From positions 1 through 26,553 of IMG/VR virus record IMGVR_UViG_3300046471_000080: DNA of 26,553 nucleotides, one strand, 5' to 3'. The DNA is from a virus. Positions 3,228 to 26,216 of this stretch are shown in pieces (position 1 is the first letter of the stretch; the number at the start of each line of letters is the position of its first letter). The notes under the pieces were generated by a model. It had not been told where the DNA came from, searched no databases, and worked only from the letters and a program-made list of their open reading frames with translations. Position numbers and translations under genes: made by a program.

Positions 3228-3239
3228 GGTATGGTTACG
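3228..3239 (-). promoter_or_regulatory. CGTAACCATACC repeat, copy A (before tailspike)
   Basis: The 12-base word CGTAACCATACC on the coding strand starts directly after the TGA stop of the giant internal protein gene and lies 47 bases upstream of the tailspike start. The same word occurs exactly at 17901-17912 and 21580-21591. Position between gene blocks suggests a regulatory or processing site; no standard sigma-70 promoter is evident around it. Confidence 0.45.
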
Positions 3240-6200
3240 TCAGTGCTTTGGCGCGCGCCCCAGTGCCACGCCCTCGGCTACGTCCAGCGCGTCTTTAGGA
3301 TGCTGCTTACCGGTCGCTACATCGGCCACGTATTGAGCTGACCCGCCGAGTTGACCGAGCCCCGGAATGTGCAGACCCATGCCCGCAGCGTTCGCGATAT
3401 CCTTGATCGGCGCGTTGACGTGCTGACCGGTCGCGAGATTCACGACATCTTTACCCGCGCCGACGAGCGTGTTGAGAAACGATTCAACGCCGACCTGGCC
3501 CGCGTGGCTATAGCCTTCGACCATCGCTGCGGCGTCGCGCACGAACGGAACCATGCCGGCCACTTCGACGGCGATCGACTTCGCGATCCAGTGCGCCCAT
3601 CCGTCCTTATCCTTGGGCGGTCCCTCGGTCAGATACCCGGCCCAAATCGCGGGCACGATCAGCGCCATGAAGCCGCGCGCCAGCGTCTGCGGGTTGCTGA
3701 TCCCGGCCGTCTTCAGTTTGTCGGCGATATCGGCCGCCTGTCCGTAGCTGTTGTTCATGAAGCCGTACAGCGTCGTGAACATTTTCACGGCTTCGGAACT
3801 GTTGTTGATCACCATCGACCGGGCCGACGTGATGTTGCTGCCGTGGGCCTCGCGCACAACCTTGCTCGCGTAGGCAACGGCCTGTTCTTCGGTCATCGGC
3901 GCGCCCGTACCGCCCATGTTCTTCGGTATGCCCACGGTGACGGCGCGGTCGTATGCGGCCCATGCCGTCGGTACGGCGGTCATCATGTCTGACCACGCGA
4001 CGGCGGCGTGCCCGAAGCGCTCGGCCTTGCTGATCTTGCTTTCCGGCTCGAACAGGTTCGCCGACATCGCGCGAAAGTCCCGGTCCTGCTGCAGCAGCCG
4101 GGCGCGGATTTCAGGGAATTTCTCCTGCGCGCCGCGGATCTCGGCGGCGTAGTTCGTGCCCATCGCGGCAAAGCGCGAGGCGAGAAACTTTTCACCACCG
4201 CCCGTGAAGTAGCCCCCCGTCTTGATTGCCGCCGACCCGCCGTGTTTGAGCACGGTCGAGATACGGAACGCGATGCCGTTGATCACGAGGCCCGTGCGCG
4301 TGTACTGCAGGATCTTGCCCAGTGCGCCGATCTCGCGGTCCTGGTTGTCGGCGTTGGCGGTCTTGCCTAGCCATTCCTGCAGCGAGCGGTACGCTTCCGG
4401 CCCGTAGGTCTTCTGGAACTGACGCCGGAAATCCCCGTTGGTGATGATCTTGTGGACGTCGATCAGCGCCTCGCGATAGGCAAGGTCGTGGATCGATTCG
4501 GTCATCGTCTGCGGAATCGTGTGGAAGTCGAGATCCACCACGTCGGTGTAACCCTGGTTGCGCGCATTCAGTGAGCCGTTGGTCGTCGTGTCGGGACGGT
4601 AATAGCTCCTGCCGAACAGACCTTCGCCCGGGTCGATCGCGCGGCCGGCTGCTTCTTTCTCGCCGCGGCGCGAGCGCAGCGGGTCGTACCTGATCGCGGC
4701 ATAGCCGCCACGCTGCTCACCGAACCTCGTCTGGAATGCGCGGGGTTCAATGCGTTCCGGCGACGTGTTGCCTAGCCGCTGGTTCATCGCGGCCATATCC
4801 GGCCAGTGCTTGTCGTACTGATCCCACACCGACTGCACGGCCTTCCAGTCTTTCTCGGTCATGTTGTCGTGCAGGAAGCGCCACACGTCCTGCGCGTTCC
4901 ACTTCCAGCCCGACGTCAGCTTGTCGAAGTTCGATTCGTTGCCGACGTGCAGCGCGATGCCGAGCATGCGGCCGCGATCGATACGCAGGGGTACGCGCGT
5001 CGTGTCGGTGCTCTGATTCACGTCCATCAACCGGTCGTTCGGCACGCCCGTCTTGAGACTGTCCTGCCACTCGCGGCCCAGGTGATCGGCCATCTTCTGA
5101 AAGTCATCTGACATGCCCTTGAGCATATCCACTTCGCGGTAGTTCGCGCGGAACACTGGTTCGTAGATCGCCTCGCCGAACGGTCCCAGCAACTCGTGCA
5201 TGTCGTACTGGTTGCGCTTGTATTCCTGCGGCTTGAGCTGGGCGCGGATCGCGCGCAACTGTGACGTCAGGTGATCGAGCGCGATGCGCATGGGGTTGCT
5301 GCTGCGGTCGGACGGCTTGTCGAAGATCTCGGCGTCGCTGAACTGCTCGCCGCGCTCCTGCATTTTCGGGATCAACCGCTCAGTGACGTATTGCTGAATG
5401 TCCTGTTTTTCACCGTTGATCATCGCCGTCTTGCGGTCGCGCCCAATCTTTTCCAGCGACTTCACCGCATCGGTCAGGCCGCGAAACTGCTCCAGCGTCA
5501 TATCGCCGTAGGGCGTGCGGAACGTCGGATTGAGCATATCCGGCGAGACGTTCGGCACCATGCCGAGCGCGGTTTGCGACTCGACCCACTTTTCGAGATT
5601 GATCTGCTGGCGCGTGGGTTTGTCGACCGGATTGGTGCGCAGGTCGAAGCGGGACAGCATGTCGTCGATCTGGTCGCGCACATCCACGTCGATCTTGCCG
5701 CGAATGCTTTCCTTGTTGAATTTCTTCAGGTACTGCACCGACTTCAGCACTTCGGCCGCGGCATTGCGCGCGGTCTTCTCAAGCTGGTTATTCAGCAACT
5801 GGTTGCGCTTCTGCTGCGCGGCTTCTGCCAGGTCGCCCTTCAGGCGTGCGGCGTCAGCGGCTTTGCCGGCGCGCGCTTCGGCCGCGCCATACTTCGACGC
5901 GTTGATATCGCGCACACGCGCCTTGGCGATCGTGGTTTCCGCGACTGCCCGCGCTGCTTTCTCCAGCACGCGGACGCCGCCCGTGGCCTTGGTCAGCGCC
6001 TTGTATTCGGTCGCAATGAAGCGGGTGCGCACTTCGTTGTGAATTGCCTGATTCGCCGCCGTGTTCATTGCCTGCGGCGACGTGATATCGCCGTACTTTT
6101 CCAGCATGCGCTGCTCGGTCAGGGCTTCCACCAGATCGCGGCGCGGCTCGGCGTCGGCGATTGCCTTCGTCATCTCGTCGGCGTTGGCAAAGCCGAAGCG

Positions 6201-15842: not shown

Positions 15843-16862
15843 TTAGACGACGCGGGCTTCAGTCGACAGCAACTGATCGCAGATGCGGATCGGGATGCCG
15901 AGGAACATCGTCGTGATCTGGCCTTGAGCGACTTCGATGCTCAATGCGTTCTGCGACTTGTTCATCGCCTGCCGGCGCAGCATCTTGCCCACGGTGCGGT
16001 TCACGTAGAACACCGGGCGGCCGACGCCTTGACGCGGCAGGCGCGCGGTCATTTCGATCAGCAGATCGGGCAACGAAACCGGCGACGTGCCATTCACACC
16101 CGGGAACGTCGGCGTGGTCGACGTGACCAGATCGGCCACGTTGATGTTTGCCGCGCGCACCGTGTAGCGCCAGTCTTTCAGCGCCACGCCGCAGTTCCAT
16201 TCCCAGCGATCAGCCAGGGCGCGGAAGCGGTTGTTGTTCGCGTCGAATGCGTCGATTTCGCCAAGATCCTGGTGGATGATCCCGGCCTTGGTGCCCTTCG
16301 GGAAAATGCCGGTCAGCGTCTGATCGCCCCAGCTCACCAGCCAGATCGAGCAGTTGTTCGAGCCGGTGCCGCCGCAATCGACGATGTTGTTGCCGTTGGC
16401 CGCGCCCGAGATCGTGCTGTAGCGCGTGGCGAGGCCGTTGAAGCGTTCTGCAAAGACGGTGGTGTCGCCGTAGAACAGCGTCTGCGCCATCGTTTCGTTC
16501 ATCGCTTCGAGGAAGGCATTTGCTTCCGAGAGACGGAACGCTGCGCTGTTGCCGTTGAGGTTTGCGGCCTTCACGTCGATTTCGTTGCGTGCTTCAAGCA
16601 TGCCGCACGCTTCGTCAACCTGCGCGCGGGTCGACTTGCTTGCCGGCACCCCGCCGTACATACGGCGCCATACGACAGACGGCAAGCCGGTGCGCACAGT
16701 CGTGCGGTGCCCGGTCGGCAGGTTGCCTTCAGCCCAGGTGGCGTCGAGCAGGATTTCGTTGGTCTGGTTGAGCAGTTCGACCACGTCGGCGGTCGTGCCG
16801 TTCGGGTCGAGCGATTTCGCTACGTCGAGCAGCGTGGGATTCTTGGTTCCAAGCACGGCCAT
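15843..16862 (-). CDS. Major capsid protein (BPP-1 Bbp17-like)
   Basis: A 339-residue protein with TLLDVAKSLDPNGTTADVVE, then EMLNQTNEIL-type and GNLPTGHRTTVRTGLPSVVW blocks, EANAFLEAMNETMAQTLFYGD and FYVNRTVGKMLRRQA. These are characteristic of major capsid proteins in BPP-1-like podoviruses, which form an HK97-type shell. The AKGTKAGI/DQLLSTEARVV-type C-terminus is complete. ATG 16862 has AAGGGG 8 bases upstream, a strong site. It lies between scaffold (upstream, 12-base gap) and cement protein (downstream), the usual order. Abundant Gly and Asn and regular strong codons fit high expression. Confidence 0.9.
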   Translation of the reverse strand: MAVLGTKNPTLLDVAKSLDPNGTTADVVELLNQTNEILLDATWAEGNLPTGHRTTVRTGLPSVVWRRMYGGVPASKSTRAQVDEACGMLEARNEIDVKAANLNGNSAAFRLSEANAFLEAMNETMAQTLFYGDTTVFAERFNGLATRYSTISGAANGNNIVDCGGTGSNNCSIWLVSWGDQTLTGIFPKGTKAGIIHQDLGEIDAFDANNNRFRALADRWEWNCGVALKDWRYTVRAANINVADLVTSTTPTFPGVNGTSPVSLPDLLIEMTARLPRQGVGRPVFYVNRTVGKMLRRQAMNKSQNALSIEVAQGQITTMFLGIPIRICDQLLSTEARVV

Positions 16863-16874
16863 GTTGTGCGCCCC

Positions 16875-17543
16875 TTATTTCTGGTTCGGATAAAGTCGGT
16901 TCTCGATCGGCTTGGCGGCGCGGTCTGCCTGCGCTGCTGCACCGGTCACGAGGTGTCCGTCTTCACTGATTGCCTTGCCTGCCTTGACCATGAACCGGAC
17001 AACTTCCGGGTGACTGCCAAGGCCGCTTTGATTCAGCAGCGTTTTCAACGCAGGCGTACCAAACGAATCGAGCGCTTTCTTTGCGACGCTCAGGTTTTCG
17101 GACAGCTTGTCGCCACCGATTTCCTTGTCCGTCGTCGTCTCTTCGGTCCATTGGGTCGTGAGAGACTTCTGCTGCTCCATCAACTGCGCCGCAAATCCTT
17201 GCGCCTGCTTGGCACCGAGATCCGCTACGCGTTGCGCCTGTTCCTGCGTCAAGCCGAGTTCCTTCGCCGTCGTCTTCAACTCGTCCAGCAATTCCCCTTT
17301 CATCTCAACGCCATCGGGGAGCTTGAATTCGTAGACGACTTCCTTCGCAGGTTCAGCGGGCTTCGCGGGTGCGTCGTCCGTTTTCGCTGCAGCCGGTTCG
17401 GCTGGTTTTGCTTCGGTGCTCGCTGCCTGCGCGGTGCTGGCATCGGGCGTTGCTGCCTGGCTCTGCGATGCATCGGCGGGCGTTGCCGTCGTGCTGGTCG
17501 CGTCTGCCGGTGCCGCCTGGCTCTCAGTGGTGGGGTCAGCCAT
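16875..17543 (-). CDS. Capsid scaffolding protein
   Basis: A 222-residue acidic protein. Residues 1-68 are low-complexity Ala/Thr/Pro/Gln. Then comes YEFKLPDGVEMKGELLDELK, a conserved scaffold motif, followed by an amphipathic helix (AKELGLTQEQAQRVADL) and a coiled-coil segment. The C-terminal HPEVVRFMVKAGKAISEDG block is also typical of podovirus scaffolds, and the basic tail would contact the capsid protein. It nucleates shell assembly and then leaves the procapsid. The ATG at 17543 lies in an 8-bp overlap with the Bbp19-family gene, with AAGG 9 bases upstream. Confidence 0.9.
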   Translation of the reverse strand: MADPTTESQAAPADATSTTATPADASQSQAATPDASTAQAASTEAKPAEPAAAKTDDAPAKPAEPAKEVVYEFKLPDGVEMKGELLDELKTTAKELGLTQEQAQRVADLGAKQAQGFAAQLMEQQKSLTTQWTEETTTDKEIGGDKLSENLSVAKKALDSFGTPALKTLLNQSGLGSHPEVVRFMVKAGKAISEDGHLVTGAAAQADRAAKPIENRLYPNQK

Positions 17544-17871
17544 TTGGTTTTTCCTTTACCCTTGCTTCGTTCGCCATCTGCGCGTATTGCTCGGCGCCAC
17601 CTTCGATCGAATGGATCTGCGCCATGAGCCGTAGTGCAATGCTGCGTTTGCCTTCGTTGAAGATCGACCAGTTCGCGTTACCGTCGAACGACTGCTGGTA
17701 CAGCCGTGCATCGCCGAGAAGGCGCCACATGAATCGACGGCCGCGTTTGCCGCTCAGAAGCCAGCGAATATCGTCAAGCTCGACAGCGGCATCAAATCGC
17801 GACTGCTCTTTCACTGCGGCGCGCTGTTCGTCAAGCGCGCTGAGGTCGGTCGGATTGAAGTCGCTGCTCAT
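17536..17871 (-). CDS. Bbp19-family phage protein
   Basis: A 111-residue protein with DDIRWLLSGKRGRRFMWRLL followed by a SFDGNANWSIFNEGKRSIAL block, matching the Bbp19 domain named after Bordetella phage BPP-1. Its function is not established; it is nearly always next to the scaffold gene, so a head-assembly role is likely. Translation initiation is unusual: the 40 bases before ATG 17871 contain no purine-rich Shine-Dalgarno sequence (TTATTCTCCGCACTC precedes the ATG), while the CGTAACCATACC repeat lies 29 bases upstream. It overlaps the scaffold start by 8 bp. Confidence 0.85.
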   Translation of the reverse strand: MSSDFNPTDLSALDEQRAAVKEQSRFDAAVELDDIRWLLSGKRGRRFMWRLLGDARLYQQSFDGNANWSIFNEGKRSIALRLMAQIHSIEGGAEQYAQMANEARVKEKPNG

Positions 17872-17900
17872 GAGTGCGGAGAATAAGGGCGCGTGTTGGG

Positions 17901-17912
17901 GGTATGGTTACG
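17901..17912 (-). promoter_or_regulatory. CGTAACCATACC repeat, copy B (before Bbp19-scaffold-capsid)
   Basis: An exact copy of the 12-base word, one base after the TGA stop of the Acb2-like gene and 29 bases before the Bbp19-family start. It heads the Bbp19-scaffold-capsid-cement block. Together with the stop codon the 18-base context matches the variant at 23562-23579 at 15 positions. Confidence 0.45.
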
Positions 17913-17913
17913 G

Positions 17914-18138
17914 TCAGAACGTCGTTGGCTTGGCGATGCTTCGCACGAGAGACATAAAGCCTTTCTGCAGATCGGTTTTGGCAATCGCGAGCCAACGTTG
18001 CTCGGTTCTCACGTTGTCGCCGAGCTTGGCGACGAGCGCACCGACCTGTTCAGCCAGTGCTTTCGCTTCGTTCATCGCGTCGATTTCTTCCTGCGACAGA
18101 TCGCGGTAGCCCTTGATTTGCTTGTGCTGGTTGTCCAT
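17914..18138 (-). CDS. acb2: Acb2/Tad1-hairpin family protein, probable anti-CBASS cyclic-oligonucleotide sponge
   Basis: A 74-residue protein: DNQHKQIKGYRDLSQEEID at the start, a first helix to about residue 42, a short loop, and a second helix with QRWLAIAKTDLQKGF and the ending SIAKPTTF. These are the hallmarks of the Acb2/Tad1 hairpin family (formerly DUF7681). Phage Acb2 forms hexamers that bind cyclic di- and trinucleotides, blocking CBASS immunity; Tad1 relatives sequester Thoeris signals. Tyr 11 and Lys 26 fall at the positions I recall as needed for ligand binding in Pseudomonas phage Acb2. I choose ATG 18138 because GGAG lies 9 bases upstream and numbering then fits; an ATG at 18153 has no such site. 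It starts 4 bases after the staple-like gene stop. Which signal it binds is not predictable. Confidence 0.85.
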   Translation of the reverse strand: MDNQHKQIKGYRDLSQEEIDAMNEAKALAEQVGALVAKLGDNVRTEQRWLAIAKTDLQKGFMSLVRSIAKPTTF

Positions 18139-18142
18139 TTGT

Positions 18143-18463
18143 TCAATCTCCATAGATGCGATTGGCGAGCGCTTTCGGCTCGCTGTTCCCCGCCGCGAGT
18201 TCCATGTCCGTGATCTGCAGCGAAAGATTGCTGTCGGTGCCGGATTGGTTCTGGTATTGCGAAACGCTGCACACTTCGACGAGCGCGGTGAGCTGCATGA
18301 CCGTGCCCACGGAAGGCAGTTCGGTGATGCCGAGCTTTTCGAGCGAATCCTTGTCGAGACACACGGACAGGCCGTATGGGTATTCCGGCAGATCAGATTC
18401 CTCCGGATCACCGAGCATCGTTTCCGATTTGGCTTCGGCCGTCGTGAGTTTCATCGAGATCAT
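18143..18463 (-). CDS. Capsid-staple-like structural protein
   Basis: A 106-residue protein: SMKLTTAEAKSETML, then PEYPYGLSVCLDKDSLEKLG, PSVGTVMQLTALVEV and LSLQITDMELAAG. This beta-rich pattern recurs in phage head clusters, where related proteins are annotated as capsid staple proteins that clip capsid subunits together; I recall that name but cannot verify it here. The start ATG 18463 forms an ATGA overlap with the portal stop and has GGGGGT 5 bases upstream. The short distance to the Acb2-like gene (4 bases between stop and start) indicates one transcript. Confidence 0.75.
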   Translation of the reverse strand: MISMKLTTAEAKSETMLGDPEESDLPEYPYGLSVCLDKDSLEKLGITELPSVGTVMQLTALVEVCSVSQYQNQSGTDSNLSLQITDMELAAGNSEPKALANRIYGD

Positions 18464-20286
18464 TGCGGACCCCCGGTGTAGCCGGTGAGATTGCTCATGG
18501 TGTCGGACAGCGCATTGCTCGCGCCGCCCTGGGTCGGTGCTGCGGCTGCTGTCTTCGCTGTCTCTGCGGCCTGCTGCAACGCGGCCTGTTGTTGCGCCTG
18601 TTGTGCGGCCTTGGCGCGGGCGGCGCGCTGCGTATCCCGTTGATCGGGGTCGACGTCGATCGACGGATCGGTGCCGAGCGCATCGGTGTACTGCTGATAC
18701 CAGCCGTCGGGGTCGAAGTTGTCGAGCACCGTCGGCGCCTGTTGCGCGTTGACCTGCATCATTGCCACCGAGCCAAGCGCCACGGTCAGCTTGTCGATCG
18801 AGTTGGTGCCGATCTGCTTCTGTGCCTGCGCGAGGATCGAGACGAATTCAACCTGCAGCGCAACGCCGGCCAGTTCAGGCGGTGGCGGGGGCAGCAATCC
18901 AGCTTCAACGATGATGTCGAAAGCAGCATCCACGAGCGGCTTGAGTAGTTCATCGTGCAGGCGCTCGATCACCGGGCCGAGCATCAACATCTTCTCTTCG
19001 TGCAGTTCTGCGACTTCGGTCGCCGTCATATTCGCGTTGGTGTTGTTCGCGAGCATAAGGAACAGGTCTTCGTAGAACGCGCTCTTGATGCGCGAGCGCA
19101 CGTCCTCGATATCGCCCAGCAGGTAATCAAGCCGCAGATTGACGTCGTACAGCGTGCGGATTCCGCCTTGCGGGCTTGCCGAGTCGACATAGGACACGCC
19201 GCCCGGCAGTGCGTCGAAGTCGTGATTCTTCAGCGATGTCGGCGCCTGCAGGGGTGGATTGGTCATCTTGTCGATGGCCTGACCCTTGCGCAGTTGCTCG
19301 TGCTGCAACTGGCGAATGTCGCCCAGCGCGTCCATCGCCGGCCCGTTGCCGTAGATATCGCCGCCATACGTCGACCAGCGCGGCGCCACGACACGGAATT
19401 TCTTGAAGCCTGACACGGACAGCAGTGCGTTATCGCCGCCTGTCGTACCCATGTTCGAGGTCTGCTGCGAGTCCGACGAGCCGCCAAGTTCCAGATACGT
19501 CGACGTCCACGCCATATTGCGTGCGTCGGACTTGCTGGGATCGCGGTCTTCGTTCGGCTCGATGCAGTGAATCACCGTGCGCCACACGTCGAGATTGCCG
19601 CTGTCGTACATCGACCGGCAGTTGTCGCTCACGTTCGCATAGCCGAACTGCTTCACGAGCTGGGCGACAGTCTTCTGGAATTCGCGATAGAGCGTGTCGA
19701 CTTCGCCGCGGTCGCTGGTCGAGATGCAGTACTCGCCGGCTGTCAGCGGGTACATGCGGATCACGTCCTGGTAATCGGTCATGATGATCGACACCGCAGT
19801 GCCGAACGCGCCGATTTCCTCATACATCGAATGCAGCGACCGGTACACGTTCGACCGGTTGAAGATGTCGAGGATCAGCTTCGTGACGTCGGCGCACCAG
19901 GTCTTGACCGGCTTCTTTTTGTTCAGGTCATCGTATGGCGTTTTGAGCGCGATCCACGGGCGGGCGGGCGATGTAGCACCAGCCATAAGGCCAGCGCCAA
20001 GCACGCGCAGCGATTTCGTAGCCGTGCTGTCGAATATGTTCTGGTTGCGGCGATTGCCACGGTTGCGGTCTTCAACGAAGAAGCGGCCTGCGCGGGGCAG
20101 CAGGACATTCGAGATATCCTTGTACTCACGAATCCACGACGACCGCTCATTGCGCAGCGCGTACCAGCGCTGCAGGATGAGTTCCTTGCGCGTCCTGACG
20201 GGCTTCGCATTGCCGCCCGTCTGGCTGGGCTTGTCGGCCGCAGCGTCCGGTTGCGCGCTCTGGTCGTTCGTGAGCAACGTTGCCAT
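18460..20286 (-). CDS. Portal (head-to-tail connector) protein
   Basis: A 608-residue podovirus portal, the dodecameric ring at the packaging vertex, somewhat longer than T7 gp8 (536). Family blocks seen: ILQRWYALRNERSSWIREYK, then NIFDSTATKSLRVLGAGLMA and GATSPARPWIAL, and EEIGAFGTAVSIIMTDYQ; NTNANMTATEVAELHEEKM precedes the channel helices. The last ~100 residues are Ala/Gln-rich, probably helical barrel plus a disordered tail. The start ATG 20286 sits in a TAATG overlap with the preceding gene. The product receives DNA from the terminase and docks tail tubular A. Confidence 0.92.
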   Translation of the reverse strand: MATLLTNDQSAQPDAAADKPSQTGGNAKPVRTRKELILQRWYALRNERSSWIREYKDISNVLLPRAGRFFVEDRNRGNRRNQNIFDSTATKSLRVLGAGLMAGATSPARPWIALKTPYDDLNKKKPVKTWCADVTKLILDIFNRSNVYRSLHSMYEEIGAFGTAVSIIMTDYQDVIRMYPLTAGEYCISTSDRGEVDTLYREFQKTVAQLVKQFGYANVSDNCRSMYDSGNLDVWRTVIHCIEPNEDRDPSKSDARNMAWTSTYLELGGSSDSQQTSNMGTTGGDNALLSVSGFKKFRVVAPRWSTYGGDIYGNGPAMDALGDIRQLQHEQLRKGQAIDKMTNPPLQAPTSLKNHDFDALPGGVSYVDSASPQGGIRTLYDVNLRLDYLLGDIEDVRSRIKSAFYEDLFLMLANNTNANMTATEVAELHEEKMLMLGPVIERLHDELLKPLVDAAFDIIVEAGLLPPPPPELAGVALQVEFVSILAQAQKQIGTNSIDKLTVALGSVAMMQVNAQQAPTVLDNFDPDGWYQQYTDALGTDPSIDVDPDQRDTQRAARAKAAQQAQQQAALQQAAETAKTAAAAPTQGGASNALSDTMSNLTGYTGGPQ

Positions 20287-21504: not shown

Positions 21505-23103
21505 TTACGCGTAGGGGTTGTGCTCGCCACGGTTGCGGGGCATCGAATATGCGTAAGGATCGTATTCGTCACGGTTCCCGGTATGGTTACGCGACAGGTC
21601 AGACACCTTGGGTGTGTCGATCAGTGCGAGCACCACCGCCGTGCCTCGGTCAGGCGATCGCCCTATCCGCTTCACGATCTCCTCGCGGGATTCGACCTTG
21701 ATCGTTCTGCCGCGAAGCTCCCATGTCGGGGCTGTCAGATCGGCAAGCAATTCAGGGTCATCGGGCAGCGCGATACCGTTGTTGGCGATCGGGTCCAGCG
21801 CCTCACGCATGCGCCACCAGAGTTCGGTGCGCAGGTTGAAGAACTGGAGCCGGCCCGATTTGTCCATCCCGCGCGCAGCTTCCGAGACATTCACCCCGAT
21901 TGCTGGCAGCTTTGCATTGTTCAGAAAGTCGTATGGCGACGAGCCCACGCCGATCACGTCGATGTGCATCGGTGCGTTGTCGCGACTAGCTGCGATCACC
22001 AGCCCGGCAACGGTCGGGCCGTCTGGAGTGGCTGTGCCGGGGTACGCAAGCAGCTTGTCGAACCACATGCCGTGGCGGCGCGAAATGATCGTCTTGTCGC
22101 GACCGCCGCGCGCCACGTCGGTACCAGTCGAATCCATCGGTGGCTTGACATCCAGCGCTTTCCAGCGGGCCATCGCTGCTTCTACCCACACGGTAGGGAT
22201 GACCTGGAACGCGTCGTCTTCGATGCCGGCGTTGAAGTCGCCATTGAGCATTTGTGACCTCAGGGGTTCGGGGAGTGCCTGCAAGGTCGACACGTAGCCG
22301 GTGCCCATCAGGTACGGGTTATCGCTGACACGCGAGGGAATGAACGTGCGTGACAGCGGATTGATGATGTCGGTCGGCTTGAAGTGCGCGGGATTGAAGT
22401 CGTACACGAGTTCGCCGTCGACAAGTACGAAAGGGCGCTTATCGGGCACTTCGATATCTTTGCCGTCGACTGTCGCGAAATAACGCAACTCGCCCGGCTT
22501 GGCTGGATTCGGATGCTTCTTGTCGAGCCACGGTCCAAAGAACGCGATGATCCAGCGGCCATCGGCTGAAGTTGGCGGGTTGAAGGTCATGAGTACCCGG
22601 CAGCGCTGCCCAGGTGTTACCGTGCGCATCCAGCCCATCAGAAAGCGCACAGCGGCCTCGCGATGGTTCGCGGCCTCGTCGTACACGATCAGGTCGTGCG
22701 GACGCCCCTGGTACTTGGTTTCGTCGCCGGGATTGGGATACGAGCCAAACTCTATCTGTCGTGCTTTCTTGTCGGGTGTGACCCTGCGCCAGATCTTTTC
22801 CTGCCCGTTGAAGCCATCCCGCCCTTTGAGCAGTTCGGTCAACCGGTCTATCACGCCCGTGAGTTCGGTTCCGTTCTCCCGCAGGACAATCGATTTCTCA
22901 TGCATCGTTGTCGCGAGACCGCACGCCAGATCGGTCTTGCCGCCACCAGCCGCGCCACCGAAGCCGACGATATCGGCTAGCGATTCGAGGGCCTGCGTCT
23001 GTGGGCCGGGCAGCGGTTTCCAGATAAAGCGCCGTGCGCGTTCACGAAGCAGTTCGAGACGACGTACCCGCTTTGCGCGATCAGATGAGGTCGCTGCCGT
23101 CAT
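21505..23103 (-). CDS. terL: Terminase large subunit
   Basis: A 532-residue DNA packaging motor. The ATPase has Walker A GGAAGGGKT at 49-57, Walker B LIVYDEA at 138-144 with catalytic Glu 143, and the coupling motif TFNPP at 173-177. The nuclease domain has acidic residues Asp 329 (GTDVARGGRDKT), Asp 382 (HIDVIGVG) and a probable third at Asp 485 (RSPDRGTAV). All key residues are present. ATG 23103 gives the usual short N-terminus; a TTG at 23127 would add 8 residues, and neither has a clear Shine-Dalgarno. It overlaps the small-subunit gene by 23 bp. The C-terminus carries a degenerate repeat (NRDEYDPYA and NRGEHNPYA). Confidence 0.95.
   Translation of the reverse strand: MTAATSSDRAKRVRRLELLRERARRFIWKPLPGPQTQALESLADIVGFGGAAGGGKTDLACGLATTMHEKSIVLRENGTELTGVIDRLTELLKGRDGFNGQEKIWRRVTPDKKARQIEFGSYPNPGDETKYQGRPHDLIVYDEAANHREAAVRFLMGWMRTVTPGQRCRVLMTFNPPTSADGRWIIAFFGPWLDKKHPNPAKPGELRYFATVDGKDIEVPDKRPFVLVDGELVYDFNPAHFKPTDIINPLSRTFIPSRVSDNPYLMGTGYVSTLQALPEPLRSQMLNGDFNAGIEDDAFQVIPTVWVEAAMARWKALDVKPPMDSTGTDVARGGRDKTIISRRHGMWFDKLLAYPGTATPDGPTVAGLVIAASRDNAPMHIDVIGVGSSPYDFLNNAKLPAIGVNVSEAARGMDKSGRLQFFNLRTELWWRMREALDPIANNGIALPDDPELLADLTAPTWELRGRTIKVESREEIVKRIGRSPDRGTAVVLALIDTPKVSDLSRNHTGNRDEYDPYAYSMPRNRGEHNPYA
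21580..21591 (-). promoter_or_regulatory. CGTAACCATACC repeat, copy C (inside the 3' end of terL)
   Basis: An exact copy of the 12-base word that lies within the terL reading frame (encoding part of SRNHTG) and 81 bases upstream of the GNAT start. Being coding, it could be fortuitous, but it is the third exact copy and precedes the next gene block. Confidence 0.35.
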
Positions 23104-23963: not shown

Positions 23964-26216
23964 TTAAAGCAAGACCGACTTTGAATACAGGTGGCCTAGG
24001 TCGAATAGTTCGCGGCGCGCCCACACCCATTGCTGCTTTTTGTTAATCGACTGACGCACGCGTACGTAGTCCAATGCTTGCAAAACTTTTCCAACTCGCA
24101 TTAATTCGCGCGTCCCGATACTTTTTGCGTCAAACCGAAGTGCATCCACCAACACCTCGTTTGCGCGTAGAAAATCGCGCGTTCGCGGCGTGGCAGTTTC
24201 ATCGTCGAAATCGCCCGGCGTGTCTAGCCACTGATCGACAATCGGAGTCCACGCATCGGAGATCTTGTGAGCGGCGTGAACGTGAACGGCGAGGCGCTCG
24301 GCGTCGCGCCAGTCGATATCTGTCAGGTCATATACGACGCACGCTTCGGCCCACAATTGGAGGCAGTCCCGTGCTATGGCTTCGGGGTCACACAGCCCCA
24401 CCATGACCGGCAACCAGCGCCGCTCGCCCGTTTCATCCCCGAGGAATTCTTCCTGGTTGGTGGTGCCGAAGAACAGGAAGCGCCGCGCAAAGTGGGTGTT
24501 GAATTCCTTGTACAGCGTGCGCCACTCTTCGTGCGTCCGGCTGATAAACGCCTTGATCGACTCGGCATCGCGCGAGTGCAGGCCGCGCAGCTCGCCCAGC
24601 TCGAGCACGAGCCGACCGCGCATGCGCCGCGATGCTTCGGCGTCGCGCTCGGCCAGGTTCAGTTCGGAATAGAAGTCGATGGCCGGCGCAAGGGCTTTGA
24701 CCGCGCGCGTCTTGCCCGCGCCCTGCCTGCCGACGAACACAGGCGCCATTGGCGCTTCGCAGCCGGGAGACAGCACGCGCCCGGCCAGCGCCGTCCACAT
24801 ATAACGGGACACCGCGCGCACGTACTCGCTATCGGTCACGCCCATGTAGTCGCGCAGGAAGTTCTCGATGCGCGGTGTACCATCCCACTCGAGCGAGCGT
24901 AGCCATTGCACGGCGCTGTCGAAACGGTTGTCGTCGGCCACGAGCCAGACGCCGTCGCGCATCATCTCTTTGGCGAGTTTCTTGAACCCTTGCTGCTCAA
25001 GCCGGATCTGCAGGCGGGTGTAATCAGCATCGGTGAAGCCGCGCCAGTCGTCGGTACCGTGCGCGGCAAGCATGATCTCGGCGCGGAACTCGTCGAAGCG
25101 GATATGCACGCCCGCTTCGAACGGGTCGGCAAGCCCCTTGACGACGTTCTCGATGATCGCCAGGATGCCGCCATTGTTGTCGCGCTTGAACCCCGGCCGT
25201 GAGCGCTGCGGCGCTTCGCCGGGCGCGGCCACGATGACTTCGAAGTCATCCTCGATCGGTTCCTGCCATCCATATTCACGCGCGGTGTGCAGGATCGTGC
25301 GCGCGGTGATCGCGCCGCGCTCACCGTCGTGCGCCTGCTTGATGTGCGGCCACACACGTTCGTTGAGGAAGTCCGGCGCGTATTTGCTTGAGCGCGCCGA
25401 GAACTCGTGTGCGAGCGCGAGACCTTCGTCGGAGCCGGACGTGGCGTGATGCAGCGCGAAAATGATGTTGCGCCACGCCTCATAATCGAGTTCGTCGTCA
25501 CCCGTATTGGGGATCGCGCCGAGCGCAGCGCGCACCTGTTCCAGCTCGACCGACACTTCACCGACGGTGGGCGCAACAGGCAGTTCGCGCTCGACGTAAT
25601 GGCAGTTCGCCGACAGTGGCCAGTCCATCTCGGCGGCGTAGGTCTTCGGCATATCGTCCAGCTCGAACGTGTCGAGTGGCACGGACGCGCCGGCCAGCGG
25701 CAGGACGAACATATTGCCGAAGCCGTCGGCCGGCACGCTGTTCTGCTTGGGGAAGATCTCGACTTGGCCGCGGGAAACACCGGCCACACCGGAACGCAAG
25801 CCGCACATTTCGAGCACAGTGCGCAACGCGTAACGCACGCTGTACGCATCCTGCGGCGCGTCCCACAGCAGATAGATGTGCAGCCCCGCACCACCGGACG
25901 AGCGGAACGGAATAGGGCACATACCGAACTGCTCGCACGCGGCCATGATCTTCAGCGCCACGGCCTGCATTTCCGGCCAGGGTGTTTCGCCTTTGTGCGA
26001 ATCAAGATCGAGCGCCGCAATCCGCGTGGTGTTGGCGCCGGGCTGGATCTGCGCCGCACCGTATGCCGGGCCACCGTTGACGTGGTGCGCGAGCTTCGCG
26101 TCGGTCAGTGGACGATTGGTGTGGGACAGCTTGCCGTCGCGCTTGACCCAGCAGTGGGACGTGACGACGCGCGAGACGATCGGCGCGAGCGCGGCGACCA
26201 GGATTTCGTTATTCAT
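23964..26216 (-). CDS. Primase-helicase: TOTE-type primase, PriCT, VapE/DUF5906-like helicase
   Basis: A 750-residue fusion for replication start. The N-terminal primase has the AEP catalytic pair in LDLD (Asp 70 and Asp 72), SSGGAGLHIYL at 106-116 with catalytic-loop His 113, and EIFPKQ at 153-158 followed by FGNMFVLPL, a TOTE-conflict-type primase pattern. A PriCT-2-like segment (about 225-300, EAWRNIIFALHHAT) follows. The helicase half resembles VapE/DUF5906: P-loop GRQGAGKT at 495-502, a Walker B-like LVLELGEL at 535-542, sensor FFGTTNQEEFL at 581-591 and the arginine block GERRWLPV at 597-604. ATG 26216 overlaps the upstream stop as ATGA. It likely primes and unwinds phage DNA; a host polymerase may elongate, as no DNA polymerase is visible here. 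Confidence 0.88.
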   Translation of the reverse strand: MNNEILVAALAPIVSRVVTSHCWVKRDGKLSHTNRPLTDAKLAHHVNGGPAYGAAQIQPGANTTRIAALDLDSHKGETPWPEMQAVALKIMAACEQFGMCPIPFRSSGGAGLHIYLLWDAPQDAYSVRYALRTVLEMCGLRSGVAGVSRGQVEIFPKQNSVPADGFGNMFVLPLAGASVPLDTFELDDMPKTYAAEMDWPLSANCHYVERELPVAPTVGEVSVELEQVRAALGAIPNTGDDELDYEAWRNIIFALHHATSGSDEGLALAHEFSARSSKYAPDFLNERVWPHIKQAHDGERGAITARTILHTAREYGWQEPIEDDFEVIVAAPGEAPQRSRPGFKRDNNGGILAIIENVVKGLADPFEAGVHIRFDEFRAEIMLAAHGTDDWRGFTDADYTRLQIRLEQQGFKKLAKEMMRDGVWLVADDNRFDSAVQWLRSLEWDGTPRIENFLRDYMGVTDSEYVRAVSRYMWTALAGRVLSPGCEAPMAPVFVGRQGAGKTRAVKALAPAIDFYSELNLAERDAEASRRMRGRLVLELGELRGLHSRDAESIKAFISRTHEEWRTLYKEFNTHFARRFLFFGTTNQEEFLGDETGERRWLPVMVGLCDPEAIARDCLQLWAEACVVYDLTDIDWRDAERLAVHVHAAHKISDAWTPIVDQWLDTPGDFDDETATPRTRDFLRANEVLVDALRFDAKSIGTRELMRVGKVLQALDYVRVRQSINKKQQWVWARRELFDLGHLYSKSVLL

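Follow-up and report, generated by a model that had tools for sequence, protein, structure and literature searches.

An Acb2-family gene inserted between two head genes in a fragment of a BPP-1-like podovirus

The head operon and the acb2 reading frame

The DNA analysed here (the window, 26,553 bases, 26.5 kb) is a fragment of a BPP-1-like podovirus. All genes of interest lie on the minus strand, and their order matches that of Bordetella phage BPP-1: terminase, GNAT, short tail fibre, portal (bbp21), bbp20-like gene, acb2, bbp19-like gene, protease (bbp18), major capsid protein (bbp17) and bbp16. The BPP-1 head operon (bbp13–bbp25) has this gene order and the same 42-nt spacer between bbp20 and bbp19, but it lacks acb2; the slot that is empty in BPP-1 is occupied by acb2 in the window. 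The features of the locus, together with the repeated word discussed below, are as follows.

15843–16862, minus: major capsid protein (bbp17), GP7-type (PF20911, E 1.2e-133)
16875–17543, minus: prohead protease/scaffold-like gene (bbp18) (phrog_458 protease, E 7e-55)
17536–17871, minus: bbp19-like gene (Phage_Bbp19; PF25181, E 1.6e-15)
17872–17913, minus: conserved 42-nt element CCGTAACCATACC...TTATTCTCCGCACTC, which bounds the slot downstream and is a putative late promoter or regulatory site (length 42–43 nt in most relatives with an empty slot; contains a copy of a genome-specific word that recurs in the same orientation)
17914–18138, minus: acb2, predicted 74-aa Acb2-family cyclic-oligonucleotide sponge (PF24729, E 9e-19; PDB p26/Acb2 8h2j, E 1.4e-20; AlphaFold2 model against 8h2j, Z 8.9, 58% identity)
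18148–18151, minus: GGAG Shine-Dalgarno sequence of acb2, within the last codons of the bbp20-like gene (sequence)
18143–18463, minus: small head gene resembling bbp20 (Pfam Gp10-like), bounding the slot upstream (PF21628, E 2.1e-17; bbp20 position in BPP-1)
18460–20286, minus: portal/head-tail connector (bbp21) (PF12236, E 2.1e-161)
21580–21591, minus: repeated word CGTAACCATACC, copy at the terL 3' end (sequence)
3228–3239, minus: repeated word CGTAACCATACC, copy upstream of the tail-fibre gene (sequence)

The acb2 frame consists of 74 codons and a stop codon and fills positions 17914–18138 exactly (18138→17914), with an ATG at 18138, the sequence MDNQHKQIKGYRDLSQEEIDAMNEAKALAEQVGALVAKLGDNVRTEQRWLAIAKTDLQKGFMSLVRSIAKPTTF and a TGA stop. 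A sequence-only reading of this DNA had placed a 74-residue protein here, between capsid-staple-like and Bbp19 genes; this is confirmed, the strand, which that reading did not give, being minus, and the flanking genes being Gp10-like upstream (18143–18463, E 2e-17) and Phage_Bbp19 downstream (17536–17871, E 2e-15). Translation likewise puts Tyr at residue 11 and Lys at residue 26, as had been claimed. The start codon lies 4 nt past the bbp20-like stop codon and 9 nt downstream of the Shine-Dalgarno GGAG (18151–18148). The GC content (0.556) and GC3 (0.707) of acb2 are close to those of the neighbouring genes, and base composition, considered as a sign of foreign origin, thus neither supports nor excludes a recent transfer. 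Elsewhere in the window, positions 23964–26216 (minus) encode a fusion of a VapE-like helicase with an archaeo-eukaryotic primase-type domain (AEP-TOTE match).

Family, fold and conserved residues of the acb2 product

Acb2 is a hexameric sponge of cyclic di- and tri-nucleotides (PMC12043709; PMC10419184). In a Pfam profile search, the acb2 product matched the Acb2/Tad1 hairpin family PF24729 over the whole profile (positions 1–58 of 58) with 67.9 bits and an E-value of 9e-19, against a curated cut-off of 27 bits. This was the sole match; the profile of Acb4 (PF13876, phage SPO1 gp1.3), a family unrelated to Acb2 from which the same job is expected, was not matched. Sequence and profile searches (including phmmer) also matched the product with crystallised Acb2 proteins (8h2j, 8h2x and 8ixz; best E 1.4e-20), and the family profile matched T4 Vs.4 (7uq2).

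The AlphaFold2 monomer (pLDDT 88) consists of two antiparallel helices, H16–40 and H47–69; the segment that forms a short N-terminal helix in the crystal structure is not predicted as helical in this model. The top Foldseek matches of the model are all Acb2 or Vs.4, followed by a gap and then by unrelated helical bundles. In VIA-align, the best match is 8h2j (rmsd 2.2, 72 of 74 residues aligned), with a Z-score of 8.9, a value that by itself is modest for a helical hairpin and here accompanies a high sequence identity of 58%.

The closest resemblance is thus to Acb2 of Pseudomonas phages PaP2/PaMx33 (p26; 8h2j, 8h2x, 8ixz), with which the window protein has in common the family, the hairpin fold, a near-identical N-terminus (MDNQHKxIKGYRDLSQEEID), Tyr11, Lys26 and the C-terminal motif RWLAI.KTD.Q. 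It lacks an insertion in the helix–helix loop of the crystallised protein and is therefore about 19 residues shorter, as are most homologues. T4 Vs.4 (T4 Acb2) has the same fold (Z 8.6), although it is only 28% identical to the window protein. Among 60 homologues, Lys26, which we take to be a residue of the cyclic-dinucleotide pocket of Acb2, is invariant and Tyr11 is conserved in at least 90%; the window protein keeps every near-invariant residue except Asp46, which is replaced by Glu. Profile alignment equates Tyr11 with T4 Tyr8, a pocket residue required for cyclic-dinucleotide binding by T4 Acb2 (PMC12657218; PMC12657230).

Profile match, structural similarity and conserved residues clearly place the acb2 product in the Acb2 family, as the sequence-only reading had proposed, and it is therefore sound to infer that it sequesters the cyclic nucleotides of CBASS. 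That reading had also allowed for resistance to Thoeris; the CBASS part agrees with family membership, whereas the Thoeris part is dropped for the structural reason given below. Membership in the family is in itself ordinary; what it adds is an extension of the family to a new phage group, BPP-1-like phages whose prophage relatives are found in Paraburkholderia and Caballeronia.

The bbp20–bbp19 slot in related phages

The locus was compared with related-capsid loci, with Paraburkholderia/Caballeronia prophages and with loci found via bbp19 and the bbp20-like gene. In most close relatives (capsid protein 79–100% identical), the gap between the bbp20-like gene and bbp19 is 42–43 nt, as it is in BPP-1 (42 nt). 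In the window, the acb2 stop codon directly abuts the 42-nt element, and acb2 plus 4 nt are added with both flanks undisturbed. This comparison shows that acb2 has been inserted, with a precision of a few bases, between the bbp20-like stop codon and the conserved 42-nt element. At the position of the acb2 Shine-Dalgarno sequence, six close empty-slot relatives (L083, L084, L085, L095, L097 and L089) have GGCG or GGCA, and two relatives with other cargo (L082 and L111) have GGAG, as in the window.

Where the slot is filled in relatives, the cargo differs from acb2. Two relatives carry orphan proteins of 82 aa (L082) and 79 aa (L110), and one (L111) carries a 135-aa PF13876 protein (E 1e-19) with an extra N-terminal domain. 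PF13876 is the Acb4 family of CBASS sponges, of which eight of eight tested homologues bind 3',3'-cGAMP (PMC11722364). Thus, two of the three types of small cargo belong to known sponge families, Acb2 and Acb4, which are unrelated to each other. Other cargo is not evidently a sponge: L099 and its near copies hold a 2.2-kb tail-fibre-like gene, and in L112 and L171 a 382-aa gene, tail-fibre-like in L112, stands where a detectable bbp20-like gene would be. A survey of the same locus, which had been suggested along with the sequence-only reading, therefore finds a slot that is empty in most close relatives and otherwise holds Acb4-family, orphan or tail-fibre-like cargo. A genome scan for prophages yielded five loci, in all of which the slot lacks acb2. 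Three genomes of the genus with the nearest prophages have PF24729 proteins, and the tested head genes were not found in the 3-kb loci around them.

On its own, the orphan domain (GYVYVNPKDVFERKY / GYTSWSPADTFEAAY; L082:256–504 and L110:4863–5102) gives no match in Pfam. In L270–L278 it forms a fusion with an Acb4 domain, in L229–L231 and L294 it adjoins an acb4-like gene, and in L245–L249 (contigs of L062–L065) it immediately follows acb2. Since it is also widespread without either Acb4 or acb2, these associations are suggestive only of a link to counter-defence, for which the domain is a candidate. The gaps of 128–136 nt in L100 and L104 might be eroded copies of the L110 orphan gene, with which they align weakly.

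The acb2 gene has also entered the BPP-1-like group a second time, independently and at another position. In a second BPP-1-like fragment (L041:618–842), it lies upstream of a 498-codon frame, a GNAT gene and a portal gene whose product is 54% identical to that of the window. Separately, the portal/bbp20/bbp19 region of relatives contains large tail-fibre-like or glycan-processing-like inserts (L099:4753–6939, L089:1885–3471, L104:4534–6567 and L112:5789–6937), indicating that it is a general variable region.

Expression, CBASS triggers and the role of acb2

Three copies of the word CGTNNNCATACC are present in the window, at the 3' end of terL (21580–21591), 42 nt before bbp19 (17901–17912) and before the tail-fibre gene (3228–3239), in each case on the minus strand, the orientation of the late genes; a fourth match, with middle letters GGG (3925–3936), falls within a coding frame and was discounted as a chance occurrence. 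Relatives have the word at the terL and bbp19 positions, and those covered by longer sequence mostly have it at a further site some 15 kb downstream as well. In L168, the word is at 24133, 20748, 6186 and 26295. Its middle letters vary between genomes (AAC, TCA, ACG, TCACTT) and agree within each genome; such agreement among 18 genomes, which are related and not independent, is unlikely to have arisen by chance. In BPP-1, the corresponding positions are taken by another repeated word, GGGTGCCCGTGCC. From this pattern, the word is probably a late promoter or activator site that co-evolves with its reader.

Because acb2 lies between the first and second copies of the word, just upstream of the second, it is predicted to be transcribed late with the portal and bbp20 genes. 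Late co-expression with the head genes is most likely also because acb2 has no spacer for a promoter of its own. The idea that acb2 might also be made early finds no support at this locus, where the 4-nt gap leaves no room for a promoter and the Shine-Dalgarno sequence lies inside the upstream gene, and neither does carriage of the product in virions. A scan for sigma-70 promoters near acb2 found nothing, which is weak evidence as the scan performed at chance level overall.

The placement of acb2 among late genes, which had seemed unexpected for a defence blocker, is not very odd, and that impression was only partly right. In several unrelated phages, acb2 is likewise found among late genes, near those for terminase, portal or capsid. 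In Vibrio phage H188 and Leptolyngbya phage Lsp-JY19, it follows the capsid gene with a few genes in between, and in Pseudomonas phage 5400 it comes just after the endolysin gene. It is not always late: in PaMx33, acb2 is at the end of a replication unit that holds DNA polymerase and primase, beside convergent structural genes, whereas in the window it is within the head operon. Among 61 non-redundant viral acb2 loci, a terminase large subunit gene is nearby in at least 14 and a DNA helicase gene in at least 9, so that acb2 is common beside late genes and not confined there.

Known CBASS triggers are themselves late head proteins, prohead protease and capsid proteins being among the reported triggers or escape sites. 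According to the review literature, a prohead protease activates a CBASS cyclase (PMC12409349; PMC11312562), phages deleted for acb2 escape CBASS through capsid mutations (PMC10419184), and Acb2 is active in prophage induction and inactive in maintenance (PMC12043709). Given the reported trigger and escape sites, a sponge gene beside the protease and capsid genes may reasonably be regarded as an antidote placed next to its triggers.

The nearest prophage relatives are in Paraburkholderia and Caballeronia; prophages with a 99% identical capsid protein are in Paraburkholderia. SMODS nucleotidyltransferases make the CBASS signal. They are encoded in 12 of 99 genomes of Paraburkholderia, which makes CBASS a realistic threat; in the three genomes with the nearest prophages (L169–L171), no SMODS match was found.

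The explanation that best accounts for these results, with a probability of about 0.88, is that acb2 is a horizontally acquired CBASS sponge gene inserted in the bbp20–bbp19 cargo slot and co-transcribed with the late head genes. The encoded protein, a hairpin of alpha-helices that is predicted to assemble into a hexamer, would bind and hide the cyclic di- and tri-nucleotide alarm signals of host CBASS, so that CBASS effectors stay off and the infected cell survives long enough for phage release. Transcription just ahead of the prohead protease and the major capsid protein would supply the sponge as capsid-stage triggers appear. This explanation takes up the observed family, monomer fold, conserved pocket residues, insertion history and gene order, and adds to them a predicted binding activity, hexamer, late timing and timely sponge supply.

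It is improbable that acb2 is instead a recently gained passenger, expressed but of no present benefit and heading for loss. Presence at the slot is patchy, relatives gain and lose cargo freely, and sponges can be a liability, being sensed by Panoptes (PMC12657218); however, the frame of acb2 is intact, its ribosome-binding site is good and the near-invariant residues are kept apart from the Asp46 substitution. Even less probable is an Acb2-fold component of head assembly or of the virion, retained for a structural function, its sponge activity being secondary or gone. The position of acb2 between two genes of the head operon, and just after the capsid gene in other phages, is in line with such a role, but acb2 is missing from BPP-1 and from nearly all close relatives with otherwise the same heads, homologues are spread over many unrelated backbones and gene neighbourhoods, and the conserved residues match the nucleotide pocket; a structural role is thus rejected as the main reading. 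A sponge of the Tad1 type, able to capture gcADPR as well and to block Thoeris, is highly improbable and is rejected, because Tad1, although its C-terminal helical hairpin is common to the window protein at the family level and the name of PF24729 spans both hairpins, has before this hairpin an antiparallel beta-sheet domain that helps form the gcADPR pocket (PMC12043709), and in the 74-aa model this domain is missing, with two helices and no strands.

The CBASS sponge explanation can be extended to the slot as a whole. The bbp20–bbp19 gap of BPP-1-like phages might be a place where counter-defence cargo is exchanged, with unrelated sponges (Acb2, Acb4 and perhaps the orphan YVNPKDVFERKY domain) substituting for each other and being co-expressed with the CBASS-triggering prohead protease and capsid protein, placing trigger and antidote in one late operon; this proposal is tentative, and we rate it at somewhat below even odds. 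The new point is a proposed sponge-swapping slot beside reported CBASS trigger genes. Near-identical heads with one clean slot that is empty or holds Acb2, an Acb4-family protein or an orphan domain amount to a natural swap experiment, and comparison of the slot bears on whether late, capsid-stage triggering of CBASS selects the position of the sponge. The orphan domain is a testable candidate for counter-defence.
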